DNA of 26,601 bases, taken from positions 1-26,601 of the IMG/VR virus record IMGVR_UViG_3300020060_000024; one strand, 5' to 3'. The notes beneath the pieces are model-generated. The model was given only the letters and a program-made list of their open reading frames with translations. It had not been told where the DNA came from and searched no databases. Made by a program: the position numbers and the translations under genes. Positions 206-23,927 of the stretch are shown here, one piece after another (the first letter of the stretch is position 1; each line of letters begins with the position of its first letter). Origin of the DNA: a virus.

Positions 206-445
206 TCAGAATTGTCTCTCATGCCACCAACTAGGAAGACACCCCTCCCTAATTAACTGGTTCTCTAGACTCTCTTTAATCCATTGAGGAACAGTCAGGT
301 GTTTTAGTTTGGCAGCTTCCTCTACAGCCATTAAAACTCTGCCCTGTAGCTGCACTTCAATTTTTTCTAAGCCGGGAACTTTAGTGTACCTTCCTTTATC
401 CTTGACAATCATATCATCTAATGATTTACTGGTTTTATGAGACAT
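206..445 (-). CDS. Ribbon-helix-helix-like small DNA-binding protein
   Basis: A protein of about 79 residues from ATG 445-443. The middle holds a short beta strand (KIEVQLQGRVL) followed by two predicted helices (AVEEAAKLKHL, then TVPQWIKESLENQLI), the order seen in Arc/CopG-type ribbon-helix-helix repressors. A basic N-terminal arm precedes it and the tail ends PSWWHERQF. The start is uncertain: no candidate (TTG 484, ATG 460, ATG 445) has a convincing Shine-Dalgarno site. From ATG 445 the gene overlaps the start of the divergent helix-turn-helix gene by 9 nt, and the promoter of that gene lies inside this coding region. The pair therefore looks like a compact regulatory switch. The fold is inferred from pattern, not from a search. 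Confidence 0.55.
   Translation of the reverse strand: MSHKTSKSLDDMIVKDKGRYTKVPGLEKIEVQLQGRVLMAVEEAAKLKHLTVPQWIKESLENQLIREGCLPSWWHERQF
402..437 (+). promoter_or_regulatory. Leaderless promoter of the double-HTH regulator gene
   Basis: TTGACA at 402-407, a 17-nt spacer and TTTACT at 425-430 place the predicted transcription start at about 437, the A of the ATG. No Shine-Dalgarno site precedes this ATG, so the mRNA is probably leaderless. An inverted repeat AATCAT-N8-ATGATT (407-412, 421-426) covers the spacer and edges the -10, and may be an operator. The same hexamers and spacing recur before the WhiB gene at 23138-23166. Confidence 0.6.
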
Positions 446-934
446 CCTTGGGCCCTTCATCGTAGATCTGTTGGTCTTACACAAGAATCACTTGCTGACT
501 TTCTTGAAGTTAGTAGGCACATGGTGATTAGGCTAGAACAATCCCTATTCCCTGAACCACCACCTCAGTTACTTAAGGCTATTAGTTCTTTGCTAGAAGT
601 TAGTTCTTCAGATTTACTTAATGAATACCATTCATATGCTACTGAAACTAGATATTCTTTTAGAGATGAACACAGAGATTTCTTTTCAGTTTTGGTTAAT
701 TATCGCGTAGACTCGTTAGACATGGCACCCCTAGTTTACTATAGAGAGGCTGAAGGCTTAACGAGGATGGGGTTGTGTAAGGGGTTATGCTTACATCAGG
801 ATTCAGTTAGGGATTATGAATTGAATCTGCAGCGTTCTTTACCTGCTCAATTAATAGAAGCTGCTGACTTATTAGATTGGAATTATTCTGTTATTGAGGA
901 GCTAACTCAAAAGTGGAGGATTAGATGGCATTAG
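437..934 (+). CDS. Xre-type regulator with two helix-turn-helix segments
   Basis: A 165-residue protein. Residues 5-62 match the Xre/Cro pattern: GLTQESLADFLEVSR at 13-27, then a recognition helix and IRLEQ. Residues 98-160 repeat the architecture in a diverged form (REAEGLTRMGLCKGLCL, QDSVRDYELN, then a LPAQLIEAADLL helix), so the protein seems to hold two HTH units in tandem. This could let a monomer bind two half-sites. The ATG at 437 sits at the predicted transcription start with no ribosome-binding site. The gene overlaps the next one by 10 nt and so may head the late operon. Its role as a repressor or activator of early/late control is inferred. Confidence 0.7.
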   Translation: MRHPWALHRRSVGLTQESLADFLEVSRHMVIRLEQSLFPEPPPQLLKAISSLLEVSSSDLLNEYHSYATETRYSFRDEHRDFFSVLVNYRVDSLDMAPLVYYREAEGLTRMGLCKGLCLHQDSVRDYELNLQRSLPAQLIEAADLLDWNYSVIEELTQKWRIRWH

Positions 935-2800: not shown

Positions 2801-4338
2801 TGGCTAGAACTAAGCATTCTGAAACTTTCTCGCTACAGGATATGGTTAGAAGTCTTAGTGAGAGAGTTAAAAATCAGGCAGTACGTCCGGATATTAAAGG
2901 CTATGTTCCTCATGATAAGCAGATTATTTTTCATGCGGCATCAGGCCGCCACAGACTCTATATTGGTGGTAACCGTTCTGGTAAGACTACAGGGGGGATT
3001 GCTGAGGATATATGGTGGCTTACTGGTAAACATCCCTATAGAAAGACTCCTGAAGGTGGAATTAGAGGAAGAATTGTAGGGGTTGACTTTTTAAATGGAA
3101 TTGAGAAGATTCTTAAGCCAGAATTAATGCGTTGGTGCCCTGTATCTGAACTTAGAGATAATAACTGGACTGATTCTTATGATACTCAGGAGCGCACACT
3201 ACATTTTGCTAATGGATCATTTGTTGAGTTTATGTCTTACGACCAACAACTCAACAAATTTGCAGGCACTTCGCGCCATTTTATTCATTTTGACGAAGAA
3301 CCTCCCCAGGATATATATACTGAGTGTCTCGTTCGTTTACTCGATACTAAAGGTTCTTGGTGGATGACTCTTACCCCTGTAGAGGGTATGGAGTGGATGT
3401 ATGATGATATTTATATTAAGGGTAAGACAGATGAATCTGCTAATATCTCAGTAATTGAAGTAGAAACTTATGAGAATCCTTATCTAGATCAAGATGAAAT
3501 TGATACTTTATTAGCGGCGATTGGTGCAGATGATCAAGATGCCCGTATTAAGGGTAAATTTATTCGTCGTGGTGGTCTAGTTTATAAGAAATTTAATAAA
3601 ATGATTCATGTTATTAAGCCATTATTAGAAATTCCATCTGGTTGGGAAATTTATGCTTCAATGGACCACGGCTTTAACAATCCTACTTCTTGGCACTGGC
3701 ATGGAGTGGATAGTGATGGGAACGTGGTTACTTTTGCTGAGCATTATGCATCCGAAATGGTCGTTAAAGATCATGCATCGGCAGTTAAAGCTATTGATGC
3801 TAGTAATGGTCGGACTGCAGGTATGTATATTGGTGATCCTGCTATTACTCAGCACAATGGGGTAACTGGTTCCACAGTTCAATCTGAGTATGCTATTAAT
3901 GGAATCTATATTACTGGTGCTAATAATGAAGTTCTAAATGGAATTAACAAAGTCAATACTTATCTTCAGCATAAGATGCCTGAACATCCTCCTCGTTGGC
4001 ATATCACTAATAACTGTACAGAACTAATTCGAGAAATTCAGCGCTACAGGTGGAAAACCTGGGCTAATAAACAAATGGCCAATCAAAATAATAAATATGA
4101 TGTGGCTCATAAAAAAGATGACCATGCAATGGATGATGTTAGATATTTCTTTACTATTATGCCTGACCTCACCCCACTTAAAATTGAGGATACTAAGAAC
4201 CCTATGCCTGTATTAGGACCCAATGGTATTATGCCTGCAGAAGATAAAACTGATCCTTGGGTTTTAATGGGTAGCAATAGAATTCAGCAGGAATGGTCTA
4301 CTGAATCAGTTGATGAATATATGGGTGGGGAATGGTAG
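2800..4338 (+). CDS. terL: Terminase large subunit (packaging ATPase-nuclease)
   Basis: A 512-residue protein and the best-defined gene here. It drives DNA into the prohead and cuts the concatemer. Walker A is GGNRSGKT (56-63), Walker B FIHFDEE (161-167, catalytic Glu after the Asp), and the coupling motif follows at MTLTPVEGMEW (189-199). The nuclease domain, RNase H-like, begins at SMDHGFNNP (D289), with further acidic residues at GDPA (D346) and HAMDDVRYF (442-450). Length and order match full-size TerL proteins. The ATG overlaps the preceding TAA (TAATG), so translation is probably coupled. Confidence 0.95.
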   Translation: MARTKHSETFSLQDMVRSLSERVKNQAVRPDIKGYVPHDKQIIFHAASGRHRLYIGGNRSGKTTGGIAEDIWWLTGKHPYRKTPEGGIRGRIVGVDFLNGIEKILKPELMRWCPVSELRDNNWTDSYDTQERTLHFANGSFVEFMSYDQQLNKFAGTSRHFIHFDEEPPQDIYTECLVRLLDTKGSWWMTLTPVEGMEWMYDDIYIKGKTDESANISVIEVETYENPYLDQDEIDTLLAAIGADDQDARIKGKFIRRGGLVYKKFNKMIHVIKPLLEIPSGWEIYASMDHGFNNPTSWHWHGVDSDGNVVTFAEHYASEMVVKDHASAVKAIDASNGRTAGMYIGDPAITQHNGVTGSTVQSEYAINGIYITGANNEVLNGINKVNTYLQHKMPEHPPRWHITNNCTELIREIQRYRWKTWANKQMANQNNKYDVAHKKDDHAMDDVRYFFTIMPDLTPLKIEDTKNPMPVLGPNGIMPAEDKTDPWVLMGSNRIQQEWSTESVDEYMGGEW

Positions 4339-12688: not shown

Positions 12689-14224
12689 ATGGGTGGCGAA
12701 CCAATTCGTTTAGGTCCTTTTGTCGGAGGCATGAATACTCTCTCTGATCCGACAGCCTTACAGGATACTGAACTAGTAGATGCTTTGAATGTAGAACTTG
12801 ATTTAGATGGATCTTATATTTCAAGACCTCCTTTTTTCACAGTTGCTAGTCCTGCTTCTGGTGGTCATGTTAAGCTTCTAGGTTATTATATTAGTGGAAC
12901 TAGTTTATTACTTATTGGCATCAATTCTACAGGGCTATGGTATTTTAACTCGGGTGCTTGGACCTTTATTGCGGGTACAGGAACTTTAACCTCAACTGCA
13001 GTAGTTCAATATGATGATGCTCTTTGGATTGTTGCTACTCCTGGATCTACTGGTAATGGTGGACGATTAAATGGTACTGTCTTTACAGCTGTAGCTGCTA
13101 TGCCTCGTGGTGGGTCTGCTGTAGTACATAAAGAGCGTATGTATATTGTTCCAGGTCCTTCTATTACAGGTACTAACAGTACTTTACTTAGATTTTCCGA
13201 CCCTGCTGATTTCAATACTTGGCCTGGTGGTAATTCTATCTTTATCAATAAGGGTGATGGTCAGAAACTTATTGATATTGCAGTTTACAATGATAATTTA
13301 CTTCTTTTCAAAGAAGATAGTACTTATGTACTAGCTTTTGATATCTCACCTTCTGATGCTATTACTCGTAAGATTAACAGCAATATTGGAGTTTCTAGTA
13401 AAGACTGTGTTGTAGCATACGAGAACCAGTTGTATGTTCTTCACGAAAATAATGTCTATGAAGTAGTTAACTATGACTTTGCTAAGATTAATTCTAAGGT
13501 ACCTTTAACCTATGACTCTACTGCTCCTGGTGGAGGTTGGTCTGATCCTTTCTTCTTAACATTGCTAGGAGATAGATTAGTAGTTAAGTACTATGCTAAG
13601 CTTTATATTTTTGGATTGAAGACTAAAGTATGGACTAGATGGGATACTGAAACTTTAGGCGGTCGTTATATTGGACCTGCTATCCCTGTACCTATTAAAG
13701 ATGAAGCAAATGCTATTCCTACATTCTTTATGAATTCTGCTGCTTTGAGTTCTGGTGCTGTCTATAGTTTTAGGGATGTTATTGATAGTTCAAATGCTGA
13801 AGATATTGCAGTTTCTATTAAGACTAAGAATTATGATTTTGGAGTTCCTCATCGTTATAAGAGATTATTTTGGTGGGGAGCAGATGTCTCAACTAAGAGT
13901 GATATTACTGGAACTGCTCAGCCCATAATTGTTAACTTCTCTGTTAACTGGGATCAGTTAGAAGATGGTGCTCCTGCTATTAACTGGGATACCCTAGCTA
14001 CTTGGGATCAACCTCTTAATATGCCTATTGTTATTCAGACAGTTAGATTAGCTCAATCAGCTGTTAGAAAATTTGCTAAATTTAGGAAGTCTCTTAGATT
14101 TAGACAAATTAACTTTGGTATTGAAATGTCATATGATGGTACTAATATCTCAGGTCCTGTTAGATTCTTCACACTTACTACTATTATTGGCACAAAAGAA
14201 CACGTATCCAAGGACTTGACGTAG
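12689..14224 (+). CDS. Tail hub / stabilization protein (P22 gp10-like, beta-propeller pattern)
   Basis: A 511-residue protein from ATG 12689 (an in-frame ATG at 12671 would add six residues but has no ribosome-binding site). It begins MGGEPIRLGPFVGGMN, and DTELVDALNVELDLDGSYIS follows, a start common to podovirus hub-like proteins. The body is a series of strand pairs with repeating aromatic/Gly patterns (LLGYYISGTSLLLIGI, AVVQYDDALWIVATPG, IDIAVYNDNLLLFKED, DCVVAYENQLYVLHENNVY), as in a beta-propeller. The C-terminus (RKFAKFRKSLRFRQINF) is basic. With the adaptor before it, it probably closes the portal channel and carries the tail spikes or needle. The identity is by pattern and context. 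Confidence 0.65.
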   Translation: MGGEPIRLGPFVGGMNTLSDPTALQDTELVDALNVELDLDGSYISRPPFFTVASPASGGHVKLLGYYISGTSLLLIGINSTGLWYFNSGAWTFIAGTGTLTSTAVVQYDDALWIVATPGSTGNGGRLNGTVFTAVAAMPRGGSAVVHKERMYIVPGPSITGTNSTLLRFSDPADFNTWPGGNSIFINKGDGQKLIDIAVYNDNLLLFKEDSTYVLAFDISPSDAITRKINSNIGVSSKDCVVAYENQLYVLHENNVYEVVNYDFAKINSKVPLTYDSTAPGGGWSDPFFLTLLGDRLVVKYYAKLYIFGLKTKVWTRWDTETLGGRYIGPAIPVPIKDEANAIPTFFMNSAALSSGAVYSFRDVIDSSNAEDIAVSIKTKNYDFGVPHRYKRLFWWGADVSTKSDITGTAQPIIVNFSVNWDQLEDGAPAINWDTLATWDQPLNMPIVIQTVRLAQSAVRKFAKFRKSLRFRQINFGIEMSYDGTNISGPVRFFTLTTIIGTKEHVSKDLT

Positions 14225-14240
14225 GAGGTATGCTTAAATT

Positions 14241-22506: not shown

Positions 22507-22874
22507 TGGATGATCTCGTTACTAAGATTCTCCTAGGTTTGGTTGCCGTGGGATTTTTTAGTGATTTAGCTAAGGGATTCTTTCAACGAAAAAAGATTAA
22601 TTCTGAATCTAATTTAGATGATGCTAATGCTATTCAGGTTATTGTAGGTTCTTCCATTACTATGTTAACACCTTTAAAAACTAGAATTGGTGAGTTAGAG
22701 TCTGAGACTACTATCCTGAGAAATGAACTTAGAGAATCTCGGGATGAGGTGGTTCGAACTACGAGATTGTTACATGCAGCAAATGATCAATTAGAAGCCT
22801 CTACAGCAGAAAACAAAAGGGTAACTGCTGAGAATAAACGTCTTAGAATTCAACTAGCAGGAGGAAAACCATGA
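22506..22874 (+). CDS. Membrane-anchored coiled-coil protein in the lysis cassette
   Basis: A 122-residue protein with AGGAGG before ATG 22506. One N-terminal membrane helix (about 4-26, TKILLGLVAVGFFSDLAKGF) is followed by a basic patch (QRKK) and, from residue 57, a long heptad coiled coil (RIGELESETTILRNELRES, then AENKRVTAENKRLRIQLA). The topology recalls an inner-membrane spanin, but a host without an outer membrane would not need one. It may instead regulate the holin or tether the lytic enzymes. It is coupled to both neighbours (TAATG before, ATGA after). Confidence 0.55.
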   Translation: MDDLVTKILLGLVAVGFFSDLAKGFFQRKKINSESNLDDANAIQVIVGSSITMLTPLKTRIGELESETTILRNELRESRDEVVRTTRLLHAANDQLEASTAENKRVTAENKRLRIQLAGGKP

Positions 22875-23110
22875 GTGCACCAACTCAGCGTAAAGTCTAT
22901 GCATCTACTATTGGTGCAGGAGCAGGTGTTACAGTTTCAGGATTTGCTTTATGGGTTGCTGATCAAATTTGGTGGCCGTCTGAGACAGTAGATATTCCTA
23001 TTCCTGTAGCTGCTTTTATTGGATTAGTAGTAACTACTGGTTTAACATTTATTGCTGGTTGGTTAGCTAAGCAAGGTGTAGAGGTTACTGAATACCCACC
23101 AGTTGCGTAA
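22871..23110 (+). CDS. Small two-helix membrane protein, probable holin
   Basis: A 79-residue protein with AGGAGG about 8 nt before its ATG. There are two membrane helices (about 11-31, STIGAGAGVTVSGFALWVAD, and 44-66, PVAAFIGLVVTTGLTFIAGW), short polar ends and a Trp pair in the loop (WWPSETVDIP). Size and hairpin topology match class II-type holins of actinobacterial phages. It is the last gene of the rightward late series and ends 16 nt before the palindrome at 23127. Confidence 0.65.
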   Translation: MSAPTQRKVYASTIGAGAGVTVSGFALWVADQIWWPSETVDIPIPVAAFIGLVVTTGLTFIAGWLAKQGVEVTEYPPVA

Positions 23111-23126
23111 CAATCTAAGAAAAAAG

Positions 23127-23165
23127 GTAAACCCCTCTTGACAAGGTCTGTCAAGAGGGGTTTAC
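23127..23165 (-). terminator. Perfect 17-bp inverted repeat: leftward terminator and promoter palindrome
   Basis: GTAAACCCCTCTTGACA (23127-23143), a 5-nt loop AGGTC and TGTCAAGAGGGGTTTAC (23149-23165) pair without a mismatch. Read leftward, the hairpin is followed at once by CCTTTTTTCTTAG, a good U-tract, so it should end transcripts of the polymerase operon. Read rightward it lies 16 nt after the last late gene but is followed by TATGTCC, so rightward termination would be weaker. The same repeat contains the -35 and nearly all of the -10 of the WhiB promoter. Confidence 0.8.
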
Positions 23166-23174
23166 TATGTCCTA
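23138..23174 (+). promoter_or_regulatory. Leaderless promoter of the WhiB-like gene
   Basis: TTGACA (23138-23143), a 17-nt spacer and TTTACT (23161-23166) are identical in hexamers and spacing to the promoter at 402-430. The ATG at 23174 lies 8 nt after the -10, at the expected transcription start. The only purine-rich stretch upstream (AGAGGGG) is inside the promoter. The whole element lies within a perfect palindrome, so a dimeric repressor could cover it. Confidence 0.6.
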
Positions 23175-23569
23175 TGGGAGACATGCAGGCCATATCAGTA
23201 TGGCGCAGACGGGCAGCATGTAAAGGACAAGAATATTTATTTGACACAAACCCTAAAAAAGCTAAAAAAGAATTATGTTCAGTGTGTCCAGTAGCGGATC
23301 AATGTTTAAAATTCGCCATTATTTATAGTGAACATGGGATTTGGGGAGGCACAACTAAAGATGGAAGAGACGCGCTAATTCTTGCTCAGCCTTTAATTCG
23401 GCTGATGTTAATTGCGGAGGCAAAGGCTCTGGGTCTTTATGAGCATCGTTATACTGTTGAGCAGTATTGGAAATCAATTCGGCAAGCTCAGGATAGAGGA
23501 AAGATTCCTTATCAGAAACCTGTTCCGATTCAACAATGGGACTGGAATGATCCATGGACTTGGCAATAG
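23174..23569 (+). CDS. WhiB-like iron-sulfur transcription factor
   Basis: A 131-residue protein from ATG 23174 (ATG 23183 is an alternative). The four [4Fe-4S] ligands are C16, C35, C38 and C44, in the WhiB spacing C-x18-C-x2-C-x5-C, followed by GIWGGTT (55-61), the family's turn that contacts sigma factor. Known phage members such as WhiB of mycobacteriophage TM4 alter host gene expression and superinfection. In place of a short basic tail, this protein has a 65-residue C-terminal extension (helices LIRLMLIAEAKALGLYEH and YTVEQYWKSIRQAQDRG, then a Trp-rich end WDWNDPWTW). The extension is overlapped antisense for 215 nt by the zinc-protein gene. The upstream start TTG 23138 would lie in the promoter and is rejected. 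Confidence 0.85.
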   Translation: MGDMQAISVWRRRAACKGQEYLFDTNPKKAKKELCSVCPVADQCLKFAIIYSEHGIWGGTTKDGRDALILAQPLIRLMLIAEAKALGLYEHRYTVEQYWKSIRQAQDRGKIPYQKPVPIQQWDWNDPWTWQ

Positions 23570-23927
23570 TAAGTAATACTTCTAATGCTTTAGGTGGGAT
23601 AGAGTACTCAGTAGGTATTTGAGCTCTCTTCCAACGTTCGTCCGCTGTATGCATTGGGTTCCAAATAACACCCATTTTTTCTAAAGACTCGACTCTACAT
23701 TTAGTCGAGCAAACAGTGACGAACTGATAAGAAGTAAGAAAGTACTTTTTGCAGTTATCACACTTTTTGTGAAGAAACTCATCTGGTTTCTCTACAAAGA
23801 GTAAAACTGCCTGCGCTTCACGCATATTATCATTTTGATCTTGTGTTGTTTTGAGATCTCCAAATTCTTCTTCTGTAAGTCCTAACAGTTCAGCAGCTAA
23901 CTTCTCTTTTTTCGTCAATTTTCTCAA
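23355..23927 (-). CDS. Zinc-binding protein with GVIWNP...ERW motif, unknown function
   Basis: A 190-residue protein. The start is taken as TTG 23927, overlapping the resolvase stop (TTGA), with AGGT upstream; this start is less certain. Residues 56-77 hold CDNC-x13-CSTKC, a treble-clef-like zinc site, followed by GVIWNP (86-91) and ERWKRAQIP (97-105), then IPPKALEVLL. Small proteins with this Cys pattern and an E-R-W segment are seen in replication regions of actinobacteriophages, some annotated as HNH-like or zinc-finger proteins, but the HNH catalytic residues are not visible here. The last 71 codons lie antisense to the WhiB gene; this tail is acidic and Pro/Gln/Ala-rich. Confidence 0.65.
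   Translation of the reverse strand: MRKLTKKEKLAAELLGLTEEEFGDLKTTQDQNDNMREAQAVLLFVEKPDEFLHKKCDNCKKYFLTSYQFVTVCSTKCRVESLEKMGVIWNPMHTADERWKRAQIPTEYSIPPKALEVLLTIAKSMDHSSPIVESEQVSDKESFLYPELAELISNTAQQYNDAHKDPEPLPPQLTSAELKAEQELARLFHL

Follow-up and report, generated by a model that had tools for sequence, protein, structure and literature searches.

The stretch analysed here (the window, 26,601 nucleotides or 26.6 kb) makes up the whole of a virus record, and may be part of a larger genome. The capsid protein is about 40-46% identical to the capsids of Adat, Jasmine (Arthrobacter), DS1 (Cellulosimicrobium) and Shocker (Microbacterium). The gene order HTH - terminase - portal - capsid - tail - holin - whiB / convergent replication genes is the same in Adat. 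Capsid homology and gene order place the window in the Jasmine-like phage family, whose members infect actinobacteria. Jasmine is a podovirus, and the Arthrobacter phages described alongside it are primarily lytic (PMC5513430). Seventy related virus records were collected by a capsid profile. Compared records are labelled with L-numbers (L004, L007 and so on), L017 being DS1 (MW590223.1), L018 Shocker (NC_073470.1) and L019 Adat. The features under study lie at the two ends of the rightward gene array and are as follows.

206 to 445, minus strand: probable divergent gene of 79 amino acids that contains the HTH promoter and has an SD-like GAAGGG, called from translation, codon score and Shine-Dalgarno (SD) duplex.
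402 to 430, plus strand: predicted sigma-A-type promoter of the HTH gene, with -35 TTGACA at 402-407, a 17-nt spacer and -10 TTTACT at 425-430.
437 to 934, plus strand: XRE/HTH_3 DNA-binding regulator of 165 amino acids, first gene of the rightward array, predicted leaderless.
22871 to 23110, plus strand: probable holin (weak PHROG match to a holin, E 0.0061); it closes the rightward array and is followed by the hairpin.
23117 to 23126, minus strand: T-rich tail CTTTTTTCTT past the hairpin, read leftward, intrinsic-terminator-like for the leftward genes.
23127 to 23165, no strand assigned: perfect 17-bp inverted repeat with a loop of 5, GTAAACCCCTCTTGACA-AGGTC-TGTCAAGAGGGGTTTAC, in which the whiB -35 is embedded.
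23138 to 23168, plus strand: predicted whiB promoter, with -35 TTGACA at 23138-23143, a 19-nt spacer and -10 TACTAT at 23163-23168.
23174 to 23569, plus strand: WhiB-family regulator of 131 amino acids, predicted leaderless (Pfam Whib, E 7.4e-13).
23355 to 23927, minus strand: last gene of the leftward array, which converges on whiB and overlaps its 3' half by 215 nt.

The gene at 437 heads the rightward terminase-to-holin array, and whiB stands just past the end of this array. Pfam bears out the view that both genes encode regulators, an XRE-type HTH protein (HTH_3, E 5.9e-08) and a WhiB protein. The HTH protein is 46% identical to its closest relative, in L007, and has a homologue at the same place in Adat, gp03 (24% identity over 123 aa, pairwise E 3e-5). 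Ahead of the conserved protein core, as far back as the preceding stop, ATG 437 is the sole ATG, GTG or TTG. The window WhiB matches its homologue in L004 along the whole length at 58%. Cysteines C16, C35, C38 and C44 are kept in all four aligned proteins, and the window protein has GIWGG. The probable holin has a homologue in the same place in L004 (66% identical), and its position is that of the Adat gp28 holin. The tail-to-tail overlap of whiB with the leftward gene (23355-23569) is kept in L004 and Adat, and both frames look coding.

The element TTGACA-N17-TTTACT stands before both ATGs, at 402-430 and 23138-23166, just as the preliminary description had it. The exact pattern, whose hexamers were chosen after the fact, was found twice against 0.01 expected from dinucleotide shuffles, and none of 100 shuffles reached two. 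At up to 2 mismatches, 7 matches were found against 4.2 expected. Because the approximate matches are not enriched, they are uninformative as a test of the pattern, and only the exact pair carries weight. The gaps to the ATG had been given as 7 and 8 nt; counting the bases in between, they are 6 nt (437) and 7 nt (23174). The element had also been called identical at the two places. This holds for the hexamers, but the spacers are unrelated and the copy at 23138 lies inside a perfect inverted repeat. A shared duplicated element is ruled out by these unrelated spacers; the family keeps the geometry only.

The -35 is perfect at both sites, and the -10 matches 4 of 6 positions at both. The A at position 2 is a key base of a -10 box. 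At whiB, the -10 as first read was TTTACT at 23161-23166 with a 17-nt spacer; since this box is without the key A, TACTAT appears to be the better reading of the sequence, with a spacer of 19 nt where the norm is 16-18. TACTAT lies at -11 and has the form TANNNT, the first T of which is needed about 10-12 bp before the start. The box at 437, TTTACT, lacks the A at position 2 and is not a TANNNT box; this promoter is leaderless-like by spacing. A TANNNT box is present before the homologues of 437 in Adat (TACGGT) and L071 (TAGTAT). The -35 starts 35 nt before ATG 437 and 36 nt before ATG 23174, and transcription is predicted to start at about 437 for the HTH gene and at 23173-23175 for whiB. 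A general promoter scan of the window listed neither the 402 nor the 23138 site, because it required an A at -10 position 2 and a spacer of 16-18.

Duplex energies agree with the earlier observation that neither start has a usable SD site while most other genes of the window have one. Both starts are ATG, and an SD at usable distance is missing at both. At ATG 437 there is no SD, the duplex being -2.7 kcal/mol. At ATG 23174 the sole candidate is AAGAGGGG, which lies 13-21 nt upstream and is buried in the hairpin. Most other window genes have SD duplexes of about -5 to -13 kcal/mol. The genes at 2800, 10040, 12671 and 15169 are also without an SD, and each abuts or overlaps the gene upstream.

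Conservation of this arrangement was then measured with a promoter score that was written, from the general sigma-70 consensus, after the window had been seen. With it, the starts at 437 and 23174 tie at 11 at the top of the 33 gene starts of the window, and the next gene scores 7.5. Similarly, the top two of 56 starts in Adat are gp03 (TTGACA-N17-TACGGT-N6-ATG) and whiB (TTGCTA-N17-TAAGAT-N6-ATG), the next scores being 8. In DS1 the top start belongs to a whiB gene that carries no annotation, TTGTCT-N17-TACCAT-N7-ATG. Across 10 Jasmine-like genomes, an unbiased scan of 647 ORF-genes returned 16 leaderless-type promoters at a score of at least 10. They stand before 9/9 whiB genes, 5/8 homologues of the HTH gene and two other genes, both in one record (Fisher 1e-18 for whiB and 1e-9 for HTH, with sequences treated as independent though the family members are related). 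Among control genes (terminase, portal, scaffold, capsid and two further structural genes) only 2 of 238 have such a promoter. Of the first 45 records searched with a WhiB profile, 14 have whiB; the search found none in a further 34, which are mostly short fragments. The leaderless-type promoter is present in 13 of 15 whiB records, the failures (L119 and L120) being distant WhiB types, and before 6 of 16 HTH homologues.

In all 17 starts measured, including all 12 whiB starts, the distance from the first T of the -35 to the start codon is 35 or 36 nt; the 17 were chosen for having a promoter, so this result describes spacing and not frequency. This is the distance needed for transcription to start at the A of the ATG. 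A constant distance of 35-36 nt across unrelated intervening sequence points to selection on the promoter-to-start spacing, and would otherwise be hard to explain. The geometry, its conservation and its near-exclusive occurrence at the two regulators are direct observations.

The HTH gene is less uniform than whiB. Its closest relative, L007, is SD-led with GGAGG-N6-ATG, and SD-led starts are also found in L038, L043, L087, L010 and L101. DS1 keeps TTGACA-N16-TACTCT before its HTH gene but has an SD site and a leader about 45 nt long. The HTH genes of Shocker and L082 have an extended -10 (TGnTACCCT) 6 nt before the ATG. With an SD leader in about half of the homologues, the promoter is the steadier feature of this gene and the leader the variable one. 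The proposal that leaderless expression is used selectively for the regulators is therefore strongly supported for whiB (9/9 against 2/238 controls) and partly for HTH (5/8). Likewise, conservation in relatives, which the preliminary description had put forward as a check, was found for whiB (13/15) and only in part for HTH (6/16). The early and coordinate expression first suggested for the pair gains no support from their places, one at the head of the rightward array and one past its end, and continued translation under changed ribosomes is a conjecture.

The best explanation, with a probability of about 0.78, is that two regulators have their own host-type promoters placed so as to give leaderless mRNAs, and that nearly all remaining genes are SD-led or translationally coupled. 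Sigma-A-like promoters (TTGACA / TANNNT) 35-36 nt upstream would start transcription at the A of the ATG. The HTH and whiB mRNAs would then be leaderless and would be translated from a 5'-terminal ATG without an SD, a routine mode in Actinobacteria. From the geometry we infer this transcription start, leaderless translation and an independent timing of the two regulators. The whiB arrangement would be conserved through the family, and the HTH promoter would be common with a variable leader. In the window's branch, the whiB promoter would in addition be merged with the hairpin at the close of the rightward operon. The HTH -10 without A at position 2 and the 19-nt spacer of the whiB TACTAT count against this explanation, as do the SD-led HTH starts of L007, DS1 and the other relatives named above and the missing element of the WhiB records L119 and L120.

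It is rather unlikely that the leaderless start is confined to whiB, with the HTH gene at 437 transcribed from a promoter farther upstream and its ordinary leader translated without an SD. The leaders and SD sites of several relatives agree with such an arrangement, as does TTTACT, which is a poor -10. The promoter at 402-430 also lies inside the probable divergent gene at 206-445. This minus-strand gene has 9 nt at its 5' end in common with the start of the HTH gene. Its codon score is +0.125 per codon, where antisense ORFs have a mean of -0.30 and a maximum of 0.017, and its SD duplex is -7.0 kcal/mol. Codon usage thus indicates that it is probably a real gene; it matches a HicB-like antitoxin weakly (E 0.04) and has no clear family. 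However, the HTH homologues of Adat, L071, L062 and L053 have a -35 box at an equal distance, 35 nt upstream of the start, and their spacers are unrelated, which favours a leaderless HTH mRNA.

The whiB promoter lies within the hairpin at the end of the rightward array. This hairpin (23127-23165) folds at -31.1 kcal/mol with a z of -7.9, and a terminator scan reports it with 18 pairs and a T tail. The T tract after the hairpin is weak in the rightward direction (TATGTCCT) and present in the leftward direction. The 5' arm carries the whiB -35, and the 3' arm together with the T-rich bases beyond it carries the -10. Comparable hairpins stand at the same place in L004, L108 and L110. The element reads ATAACCCCTCTTGACA-GGTGG-TGTCAAGAGGGGTTAT-CTTTGTCTT-ATG in L108/L109 and GGGCCTTGACA-TCCTCG-TGTCAAGGCCC-TATTCT-TGTACT-ATG in L110, and L004 has a different 16-bp stem with TTGACA in the loop. 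The stem sequences vary and the pairing is preserved, with folding that is far stronger than in shuffles (z -6.3 to -7.9); as L110 was set wrongly in the MAFFT alignment of the hairpins, the compensatory stem changes were read by eye and left uncounted. The arrangement in L113 is similar, with a stem of another sequence (z -3.9). The terminator hairpins of Adat and DS1 stand apart from the promoter and end 127 and 37 nt before the ATG, and Shocker has a hairpin at the same place and no whiB. The simplest account of these arrangements is that an overlap between the whiB promoter and the hairpin at the operon end arose in the branch to which the window belongs.

A somewhat improbable alternative is that TTGACA-N5/6-TGTCAA over the whiB -35 mainly serves as operator for a dimeric repressor, which may be the HTH protein, and that the RNA hairpin is incidental. 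The dyad recurs in the window, L108, L110, partly in L111, and in L131 with a short stem, and similar dyads stand in the HTH promoters of L062 (CTTGACTCGGAGTCAAG) and L053 (TTGACA-N10-TGTCAA). However, L004 is without the dyad and yet keeps its different 16-bp stem, which favours the hairpin itself. Nor is the dyad seen in the window's own HTH promoter, and the stem of L113 has another sequence. An operator would be compatible with a leaderless whiB promoter. In another phage (L131, 1420-1477), the same dyad lies over the -35 of a whiB gene as CTTGACA-GGGCCT-TGTCAAG, and the ATG of this whiB is preceded by an SD-like GGGAG.

The strong hairpin at the expected terminator place after the holin gene, its minus-strand T tract and the fact that a palindrome containing TTGACA shows TTGACA on both strands could make the 23138 copy a by-product of a terminator, with whiB expressed by late read-through or from GAGGGG in the hairpin as SD, but this is very improbable because L112, L114, L115 and L116 have the same promoter geometry without such a hairpin, the hairpins of Adat and DS1 are separate from the whiB promoter, and GAGGGG is too distant from the ATG and missing in L110 and others.

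Under the preferred explanation of a leaderless whiB with its own promoter, we infer terminator activity of the hairpin. A further step, which is speculative and unlikely, would be that the hairpin acts as terminator and promoter in one, so that expression of whiB and transcription of the operons on either side exclude each other. The rightward late polymerase would stop at the hairpin or occlude the whiB promoter. The leftward polymerase would cross the whole of whiB in antisense and stop at the same hairpin. Leaderless whiB mRNA would then appear only while neither operon is transcribed. The intrinsic terminators that separate convergent operons in phages are likewise GC-rich hairpins after the last late gene. 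In contrast to ordinary terminators, the hairpin of the window, L004, L108 and L110 also carries the promoter of the next gene.

Leaderless regulators have precedents in other phages, with lambda cI and P2 C as the gene names. These are likewise phage DNA-binding regulators with a promoter that places the mRNA start at the AUG. The present case differs in having two regulators, one of them WhiB, in a family related to lytic Arthrobacter phages, with starts that are predicted and not mapped. The known leaderless genes of E. coli come mostly from lambda, P2 and Tn1721, and in mycobacteria leaderless initiation needs only a 5' ATG or GTG (PMC4633059). In mycobacteriophage Adephagia, gene 90 is predicted to have a leaderless transcript (PMC11373665). 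In bacterial genomes, leaderless genes are marked by TANNNT some 10-12 bp ahead of the start, and in Actinobacteria they average 19% of genes (PMC3160421). Such actinobacterial genes share with the two phage genes the -10-to-start spacing, the absence of an SD and the ATG/GTG start. The actinobacterial hosts have about a fifth of their genes leaderless, whereas in these phages almost only two genes are of this type, and they have a good -35 as well.

Leaderless whiB was rejected as a rule for all actinophages, since annotated whiB genes are mostly operon-internal. The whiB genes of Che8, Redi, Yuna, Nebkiss and other actinophages belong to the same Pfam Whib family, but those inspected mostly lie in operons and overlap or abut the preceding gene. 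At further whiB loci, only 9 of 42 score at least 9, several of them at implausibly distant starts. The leaderless whiB pattern thus appears to be a property of this family and not of phage WhiB generally. A literature search with incomplete coverage found no transcript data for these phages and no paper on the conserved HTH/WhiB leaderless pairing or on the hairpin-promoter overlap. Leaderless phage regulators and leaderless actinobacterial genes are already known; the pairing and the fused hairpin-promoter appear to be undescribed.

Read from sequence alone, the phage family seems to keep a special mode of expression for just two regulators. This raises the question of whether leaderless translation serves regulators that need to be produced alone, outside the large operons. 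The start-site rules are also useful for annotation, as the whiB of DS1 (MW590223.1) is missing from its record. It lies at 13807-14226 (Pfam Whib, E 1.8e-14), between the last rightward gene and the convergent leftward genes.

Two further sets of start-proximal repeats were seen in the relatives. In Adat, the HTH (1580-1618) and whiB (27600-27650) promoters have the string CTATGCTACGG in common downstream of TTGACA, a similarity that may reflect common control. In Shocker (NC_073470.1), TGCTACCCT-N6-ATG occurs three times, at 535-550, 692-707 and 3567-3582. The first copy precedes gp02, the second an ATG at 707 that carries no annotation, and the third gp10, the homologue of the HTH gene; they are likely a set of extended -10 leaderless promoters.
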